A DNA stretch of 64,000 nt from Bacteroidota bacterium. Its GTDB lineage: Bacteria; Bacteroidota; Bacteroidia; UBA8524. The stretch is from the NCBI GenBank assembly GCA_008933805.1, contig WBUH01000004.1:62001-126000 (forward strand), given 5' to 3'. The notes under the pieces are model-generated. The model did no database searches. It worked only from the letters and a program-made list of their open reading frames with translations, and was not told the DNA's origin. Within the stretch, counting starts at the first letter, position 1, and every line of letters starts with the position of its first letter. Of this stretch, positions 4,528 to 23,588 are shown piece by piece. The position numbers and the translations under genes were made by a program.

Positions 4528-4794
4528 GACGGGTATAAAACCCGTCTCTGTTGTGAGTAAAGGGTTGCCCAATTGGGTAGACGGGTATGAAACCCGTCAC
4601 TATTGAGCATCTAGTATTTTTAAGATTTTGCTATTAAGGTAAAAGGGTTGCCCGAATATAAAATTCGGGCTTTGGGATGTAACGTTCCGAATGGTTTTAA
4701 ACCATTCGGAACGAACCCTTTTAAAAGAGACGGGCTTTATGCCCGTCGAAGGTATCGGATTGAATGATTAGGCCGACGGGTGTAAAACCCGTCG
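4528..4794. repeat. Palindrome cluster A (six hairpins) in the 420-bp gap upstream of feoA
   Basis: The stretch 4446-4865 has no gene. It holds six palindromes: 4528-4546 and 4580-4598 (GACGGG / CCCGTC around TATAAAA or TATGAAA), 4650-4670 (GCCCGAAT / ATTCGGGC around ATAAA), 4683-4713 (perfect 15-bp arms CGTTCCGAATGGTTT), 4729-4747 (GACGGGC / GCCCGTC around TTTAT) and 4775-4793 (GACGGG / CCCGTC around TGTAAAA). Hairpins three to five recur in the same order in the cluster at 23467. None is followed by a T-run typical of terminators. Confidence 0.85.
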
Positions 4795-5684: not shown

Positions 5685-5850
5685 GATAGGGTTGAAACCC
5701 TATCCTGTTGAGATTACCGCATTGGGAAGGACTTAAGTCCTTCCCAATGCGGTAATTGTAAAAGCAACAGGTTTCAACCTGTTGTGTCGATGGGTATAAA
5801 ACCCGTCGTTGTTGCAGGTTGCATTCGGAATGGTTTAAAACCATTCCGAA
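5685..5850. repeat. Palindrome cluster B (five hairpins) in the 318-bp gap 5586-5903
   Basis: Five palindromes in order: 5685-5704 (GATAGGGTT GA AACCCTATC), 5713-5756 (perfect 22-bp arms, ATTACCGCATTGGGAAGG... around CTTAAG), 5765-5784 (CAACAGGTT TC AACCTGTTG), 5788-5808 (near-palindrome around TATAAAA) and 5824-5850 (TTCGGAATGGTTT / AAACCATTCCGAA). The first three have the same order, spacing and loops as the cluster at 21984 but different stems. The cluster lies past the terminator of the bacilliredoxin gene; 5586-5684 shows nothing else recognisable. Confidence 0.88.
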
Positions 5851-5856
5851 CGACAT

Positions 5857-5882
5857 AAAAAAAGGGGCTCGAGGCCCCCTTT
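5857..5882 (-). terminator. Rho-independent terminator of the bacilliredoxin gene
   Basis: GGGGC-TCGAG-GCCCC (5864-5878) with an A-run at 5857-5863, giving a T-run after the stem on the minus strand. It lies about 25 bp after the stop at 5904. Confidence 0.85.
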
Positions 5883-20415: not shown

Positions 20416-20539
20416 CGACGGGCATAAAGCCCGCCGCTGTTTATGGTTTTATCCCGACTGGTTTTGAAATTACAATGGGCAAAGAGACGTAAGCCCCTTT
20501 GCCCATTGTAGTTTTAACAGAATAGGGTTTCAATCCTAT
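20416..20539. repeat. Palindrome cluster C, inverted relative to B and D
   Basis: Between two convergent genes. Elements: 20416-20436 (CGACGGGC ATAAA GCCCGCCG, one mismatch), 20471-20510 (TACAATGGGCAAAG ... CTTTGCCCATTGTA with an ACGTAAG centre) and 20522-20539 (ATAGGGTTT / CAATCCTAT). Read on the minus strand the order short hairpin, CTGTTAAAA spacer, long hairpin with CTTACG centre matches clusters B and D, with different stem sequence. Confidence 0.8.
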
Positions 20540-21983: not shown

Positions 21984-22084
21984 GAATAGGGTTAAAATCC
22001 TATTCAGTTAAAATTACTGTCCGAAAAGGGACTCAAGTTCCATTTCGGACAGTAATCATAAGAGCAGTGGGTTTCAACCCGCTG
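21984..22084. repeat. Palindrome cluster D (three hairpins)
   Basis: Between convergent genes: 21984-22005 (GAATAGGGTT AA AATCCTATTC), 22013-22056 (44 bases, ATTACTGTCCGAAA... around ACTCAAGT, one weak stem position) and 22065-22084 (CAGTGGGTT TC AACCCGCTG). Hairpin lengths (the long one is 44 bases here and in cluster B), order and spacers (7-8 bases) match cluster B, while most stem bases differ on both arms. Confidence 0.88.
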
Positions 22085-22140
22085 TAATTACAAACATCTG
22101 CATTCATTACACCCACTCGCATCTTTTGTGGCTGTAATAA

Positions 22141-22176
22141 AACAAGAACGGCTGCCCTTGGGCAGCCGTTCTTGTT
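22141..22176 (-). terminator. Bidirectional terminator for the STAS-domain gene
   Basis: Perfect 17-bp arms AACAAGAACGGCTGCCC (22141-22157) and GGGCAGCCGTTCTTGTT (22160-22176) with a TT loop, 18 bp past the stop at 22195. Very stable; can act on both strands. Confidence 0.85.
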
Positions 22177-22194
22177 TATACGGGGTTCGCTTGA

Positions 22195-23441: not shown

Positions 23442-23466
23442 TTTACTAATAACCTGCTAAATTAGT

Positions 23467-23588
23467 CTGAATGTAAAAATTCAGGCCTTTTGGGAGTAAC
23501 GTTCCGAATGGTTTTAAACCATTCGGAACGGCTCTTTGAAATAACGGCGGGCTTTATGTCCGCTGGTACGACAGGTATAAAACCTGCC
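23467..23588. repeat. Palindrome cluster E (four hairpins)
   Basis: Between convergent genes: 23467-23484 (CTGAAT / ATTCAG around GTAAAA), 23500-23530 (perfect 15-bp arms CGTTCCGAATGGTTT, identical to 4683-4713), 23545-23564 (CGGCGGGC TTTAT GTCCGCTG, imperfect) and 23570-23588 (GACAGG TATAAAA CCTGCC). The order equals hairpins three to six of cluster A. Confidence 0.85.

Follow-up and report, generated by a model that had tools for sequence, protein, structure and literature searches.

A compact set of three hairpins (cluster B, positions 5685-5784) in the window, the whole 64,000-nt stretch of Bacteroidota DNA analysed here, is very probably a REPIN-like DNA repeat, non-autonomous and about 100 bp long, that belongs to a subclass 1.2 Y1 (HuH) single-strand-DNA transposase encoded elsewhere in the same genome; the enzyme would recognise and move it, and the arms of its central palindrome would be templated from each other. 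The observations behind this reading are a family of dispersed copies sited between genes, complete copies on both sides of the cognate gene, one such family for each Y1 gene of the genome, and comparable repeats beside related genes in other bacteria.

Architecture of cluster B and related elements in the window

Cluster B consists of a hairpin, a 44-bp perfect palindrome and a second hairpin joined by 8-nt spacers, and shares the window with other elements of its own and of a second family:

5685-5704, plus strand: HP1, outer hairpin of cluster B, GATAGGGTT-GA-AACCCTATC; stem hypervariable, GG-TTGAAA-CC conserved
5705-5712, plus strand: left spacer, CTGTTGAG (family consensus CTGTTAAA)
5713-5756, plus strand: central palindrome, 44 bp, composed of ATTAC, a variable arm, GGACTTAAGTCC, the complement and GTAAT
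5757-5764, plus strand: right spacer, TGTAAAAG (family consensus NNCAAAAG)
5765-5784, plus strand: HP3, outer hairpin, CAACAGGTT-TC-AACCTGTTG; loop the reverse complement of that of HP1
21984-22085, plus strand: second full copy of the family; central stem with 19 of 22 Watson-Crick pairs
20431-20538, minus strand: third, diverged copy (55.2 bits), TATAGGATTGAAACCCTATT / ACTACAATGGGCAAAG..CTTTGCCCATTGTAAT, with an altered centre and a right hairpin of family-2 type
4649-4751, plus strand: family-2 three-hairpin element (103.7 bits), built as cluster B and going with the Y1 gene L001
23464-23568, plus strand: family-2 three-hairpin element (99.8 bits)
5785-5882, matching both strands (70.0 and 61.5 bits): partial family-2 element adjoining cluster B

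All 22 pairs of the central palindrome match, and cluster B folded as single-stranded DNA into exactly the three hairpins (z = -11.9; 0 of 200 shuffles equal). Sequence and fold together bear out the hairpins, spacers and coordinates that a sequence-only reading had given. In the second full copy the layout recurs with other stem sequences; this copy carries the spacers CAGTTAAA / CATAAGAG and likewise folds as single-stranded DNA into three hairpins (z = -10.0). Here the earlier reading was right about the order, the 44-nt middle palindrome and the differing stems, and slightly overstated the case in calling it the same perfect palindrome, given its 19 of 22 Watson-Crick pairs. Right after this copy lies a perfect 18-bp inverted repeat (22140-22177, AAACAAGAACGGCTGCCC/GGGCAGCCGTTCTTGTTT) that resembles an ordinary terminator.

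A dispersed, intergenic family

We built a covariance model from four seed copies and searched the 4.29-Mb genome with it, which returned 136 rows, or about 67 distinct places after merging of the strands. The sequence-only reading had held that the resemblance would be chance if no further copies were found and a covariation test failed; these places supply further copies. Clear family members with a CTTAAG-type centre account for 57 of the ~67, while some of the weakest matches belong to the second family. Inside the window the matches had E values of 1e-18 to 1e-22, those of the two full copies being matches by construction since both were among the seeds. From left to right, the family consensus reads HP1 (..GGnTTGAAAnCC..), CTGTTAAA, then ATTAC, ~10 variable bp, GGACTTAAGTCC, the complement and GTAAT, followed by NNCAAAAG and HP3 (..GGnTTTTAAnCC..). 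Across the family the HP3 loop (TT/TC) is the reverse complement of the HP1 loop (AA/GA); the element is thus pseudo-symmetric and the model matches both strands almost equally, for which reason some matches were re-oriented, two of them by hand.

As for their siting, 54 of the 57 copies are intergenic, with no overlap by any open reading frame of at least 100 aa, and the surrounding genes are arranged in tandem (31), convergently (11) or divergently (8). Beyond the outer hairpins the flanks are AT-rich, and neither a conserved sequence nor a target motif was found there. The tetranucleotide GTAG (or CGTC) that canonically stands at the foot of REP hairpins was not found as a conserved motif in the flanks of either outer hairpin. 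With two palindromic units in inverted orientation on either side of a centre that forms a hairpin, the element has the architecture of REPINs; it is also dispersed as REPINs are, which occur in tens to hundreds of mostly intergenic copies.

A few copies depart from this pattern. At one locus (L175, contig 2, 383000-399500) five copies are clustered, four of them with near-identical stems and shared flanks, a local array of the element plus its flank like the REPIN clusters described in Pseudomonas. In another copy (L075, contig 4, 172994-173048) almost precisely the central palindrome is missing (HP1-CTGTTAAGATT-GCCAAAGC-HP3), perhaps through a slipped-strand event, and two further copies (L069 and L073) are truncated, one side ending within or just past the central palindrome.

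Three Y1 transposase genes, three element families

The genome carries three Y1_Tnp genes, each in single copy, whose proteins are 46-60% identical to one another, and a separate element family lies beside each, an arrangement that is again REPIN-like. The gene on contig 1 (L003, 1486-1911) has a complete element of the cluster B family on each side (1309-1411 and 1911-2010), and these two are among the three best matches to the covariance model. Because the stems are not the same on the left and on the right, there is no visible sign that the unit as a whole has moved recently. The gene L001 (contig 2) has family-2 elements on both sides in the form of a 103-nt direct repeat with the same three-hairpin architecture; family 2, with centre GGTTTTAAACC and HP3 GGGCTTTATGCCC, has ~50 distinct genomic locations that score at least 73 bits under its own model, including 4649-4751 and 23464-23568 of the window. 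A third hairpin family, with GGTATAAAACC and GTCGGGTTTTATACCCGAC hairpins inside long direct repeats, flanks the Y1 gene on contig 3 (L002, 1140-2110).

All three proteins are Y1_Tnp proteins related to the ISDra2 and IS608 transposases of solved structure (PDB 2xm3, 2vhg). They reach 80-96 bits with the IS200/IS605 model NF033573 (cut-off 55) and only 30.7-37.8 bits with NF047646, the NCBIfam model for REP-associated transposases (RAYTs), whose cut-off is 80 bits. The motifs DHVH (DH[IV]H in the subclass pattern), WQ and Y---Q--HH are present in each; the proteins carry the signature of TnpA-Y1 subclass 1.2 and would belong there by an assignment set by motifs rather than by a subclass tree. 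Since both the GTAG test and the curated RAYT model failed, we name the repeats REPIN-like elements of TnpA-Y1 subclass 1.2, a variant of REPINs.

Stems that change and stay paired

Among 53 copies free of indels, the central stem holds 1133 Watson-Crick pairs out of 1161 (97.6%) and is perfect in 36 copies, and the left arms are distinct in 49. Mean pairwise identity over the ten variable stem positions is 0.32, compared with 0.27 for the unrelated flank background; it is ~0.6 in the spacers and 0.95 in the stem core and foot. With identity near background and pairing this high, almost no shared sequence remains between the arms of different copies, yet pairing has been maintained. In a covariation test on 45 distinct copies, pairing was 98.6% against 70.0 +/- 1.0 in shuffles, double-change cells numbered 257 against 67.6 +/- 7.2, and the covariation score was 0.730 against 0.141 +/- 0.013, with 0 of 500 shuffles as high; sliding one arm along the other lowered pairing to 35-44%. 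A chance match, which the sequence-only reading had proposed to exclude by such a test, does not account for these values, and its suggestion that the fold is selected or templated is upheld by the covariation across copies.

The kinds of change are informative as well. In the variable stem columns a handful of G-U cells stand against ~250 double-change cells, and the mismatches of the central stem comprise similar numbers of G-T (13) and A-C (8). Between nearest copies, a nearest-neighbour comparison and not a true phylogeny, we counted 52 whole-pair and 11 one-arm changes. The paired changes comprised 21 transitions and 31 transversions, as against 59:48 in the spacers of the same pairs (Fisher p = 0.09), and the palindromes of two copies, L013 and L023, differ by a single G-C to C-G flip. 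In the outer hairpins, G-T and A-C pairs occur at 21:4 in HP3, where a single column holds 13 of the 21 G-T pairs, perhaps through common ancestry, and at 6:15 in HP1. This asymmetry is what would be expected if HP1 and HP3 are inverted hairpins read on opposite single strands.

Relatives in other genomes

A scan of 84,980 genomes yielded 80 relatives of the Y1 proteins, nearly all in Bacteroidota, with the WQ motif in 81/81 and Y---Q--HH in 72/81. We compared the 400 nt on either side of each gene (direct or inverted repeats, local score of at least 45), using as controls sequences 1.2-1.6 kb away: a repeat common to both flanks was present in 34 of the 80 relatives as against none of 65 control pairs, and 46 had no flank repeat by that score. 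Hairpin density was 2.4 per kb near the gene, a figure that includes our three own genes, versus 0.8 per kb far from it. The flanking palindromes are dispersed in an Arcicella MAG (8 places) and in a Cytophagales MAG (21 places), with 0 for the reversed-pattern control. Among 15 distinct copies in the Cytophagales MAG the inner part is fixed (93% identity over 14 positions), whereas the outer arms show 57% identity over 12 positions and nevertheless form 177 of 180 Watson-Crick pairs, so the variable-but-paired arm is not confined to the genome of the window. Because thresholds in the class-level scans were strict and the RNA model was applied to only 10 candidates from each genome, absence elsewhere is weak evidence.

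Other flank repeats were seen too. Six loci in other Bacteroidota, several of them Flavobacterium (L085, L087, L094, L127, L136 and L138), have a different repeat with short CCCGTAGGG / CCCTAACGGG hairpins that often adjoins GGTAGAA. Outside Bacteroidota, a Spartobacteria MAG (L111) has two-hairpin repeats on both flanks with stems changed on both arms (GCCCAGCGTTTTAACGCTGGGT / GCCCACCGTTTCAACGGTGGGT). Neither an excision or insertion nor an empty site came to light: the taxonomic family offers four other genomes for comparison (five in family and order), all of other genera, and the two orthologous neighbourhoods compared were not syntenic.

Discussion

How could such an element work? HP1 and HP3 would be two short inverted recognition hairpins around the long central palindrome, and the transposase would recognise the folded single strand by its loops, spacers and stem shape instead of its stem letters, moving or copying the element when it is single-stranded, for example at a replication fork. 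With the letters of most of the stem unimportant, the arms could drift freely, and fold-back synthesis or template switching might transfer a change from one arm to the other, such that perfect pairing would outlast a near-complete turnover of sequence. Template switching is known to create and repair perfect stems, and it has been proposed as the mechanism behind stems whose two arms change together (Monttinen and Loytynoja 2022, PMC8794818); the cases described there are RNA genes, whereas ours would be mobile DNA palindromes.

The alternative that fares best keeps the REPIN-like elements and leaves out the templating: the arms would stay paired through natural selection on compensatory mutations only. 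We regard this as less likely than not, though by no means negligible. Compensatory changes in the central hairpin have been described in Pseudomonas REPINs (PMC3116915), and some one-arm changes do occur here. Under selection alone, however, wobble pairs and transitions should dominate, whereas wobble intermediates are nearly absent, the share of transversions exceeds that of the spacers, and the palindromes of L013 and L023 are separated by one G-C to C-G flip. Because wobble pairs are few and the paired changes lack a transition bias, arm-to-arm templating is favoured over ordinary compensatory mutation, and templated copying appears, as far as the pattern of substitutions can tell, somewhat more likely than selection alone.

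It is improbable that the elements are MITE-like remnants of IS200/IS605, that is, fused left- and right-end hairpins with neither a continuing function nor a cognate relation to the enzymes. Subterminal hairpins are a hallmark of IS200/IS605 (PMC6006769), and the proteins score above the NCBIfam cut-off for that group and below the one for REP transposases. Against this, each Y1 gene is single copy and the elements occur in tens, each side of the gene bears a complete element and not a half, the copies are dispersed, and decaying remnants would not hold 97.6% pairing while their arms turn over. Improbable to much the same degree is a structured RNA, cis-regulatory or terminator element with hairpins selected in transcripts, for even though strong hairpins in intergenic DNA and significant covariation would suit it, G-U cells are scarce, G-T and A-C mismatches in the central stem are similarly frequent, both divergent and convergent gene pairs have copies between them (which partly refutes it), the model fits both strands almost equally, Rfam 15 searched at gathering score matched no known structured RNA in the window, and the pairing with Y1 genes is left unexplained. 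The terminator reading was rejected on gene orientations, and structured RNA as the main reading on the wobble counts together with the transposase gene link. Of the "structured RNA or DNA element family" proposed from the sequence, the evidence favours the DNA half over the RNA half, since copies flank genes for Y1 single-strand-DNA transposases, occupy all gene orientations including divergent ones, and have hardly any of the G-U intermediates that selection on an RNA stem should leave. That sequence-only reading had missed the connection with the transposase.

The REPIN-like reading invites comparison with Pseudomonas fluorescens SBW25, in which three groups of REPINs go with three RAYTs (Bertels and Rainey 2011, PMC3116915). 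In both systems a centre that forms a hairpin and bears compensatory changes lies between two short palindromic units in inverted orientation. Copies number in the tens, are intergenic, and occur also next to the gene and in tandem arrays that include their flanks, and each Y1 gene has a family of its own, with three of each in SBW25 and three here. In contrast to Pseudomonas REPINs, GTAG is lacking here, each outer unit forms a hairpin of its own with a loop of TTGAAA/TTTTAA type, and the central palindrome, perfect over 42-44 bp, combines an invariant core (GGACTTAAGTCC) and foot (ATTAC/GTAAT) with random arms, while the enzyme, of class 1.2, is closer to IS200 transposases. With the ends of IS200/IS605 elements (IS608, ISDra2) our elements share hairpins beside a Y1 transposase gene, the relatives of known structure included; they differ in the single-copy gene, the complete elements on both sides and the number of elements, which far exceeds that of genes.

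With subclass 1.2 itself, our proteins share DHVH, WQ and Y---Q--HH, a length of ~145 aa, the occurrence in Bacteroidota and the low copy number. In the published survey this subclass is scored as devoid of REPs and, in general, of terminal structures (Quentin et al. 2018, PMC6006769), whereas dispersed hairpin elements flank our three genes and flanking repeats accompany 34 of 80 relatives; a limited search found no later literature on the subclass, an absence that is no proof. Subclass 2.6 (RAYT group 5) of the same survey also occurs in Bacteroidetes and has atypical flanking structures with genomic copies; it is set apart by its protein class and its Y motif, YIH[QN]NP.

Going further, and at somewhat less than even confidence, we propose that the palindrome arms may be rewritten from each other, through template switching or fold-back synthesis, in each round of copying, with shape as the inherited trait: loops, spacers and the 6-bp core would be copied faithfully and ~10 bp per stem would become near-random while remaining paired throughout. 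Enzymes of subclass 1.2 would then read the shape of hairpins and be the equivalent of RAYTs across much of Bacteroidota.

An enzyme class acting on single-stranded DNA that was left without a partner element by the main survey gains one here. The family also provides dozens of natural perfect palindromes of the same shape with different letters, a series that makes it possible to test what these enzymes read in a hairpin and by what means both arms of an evolving DNA palindrome remain complementary. We consider the family a striking case, open to testing, of DNA that is maintained for its shape and not for its letters.
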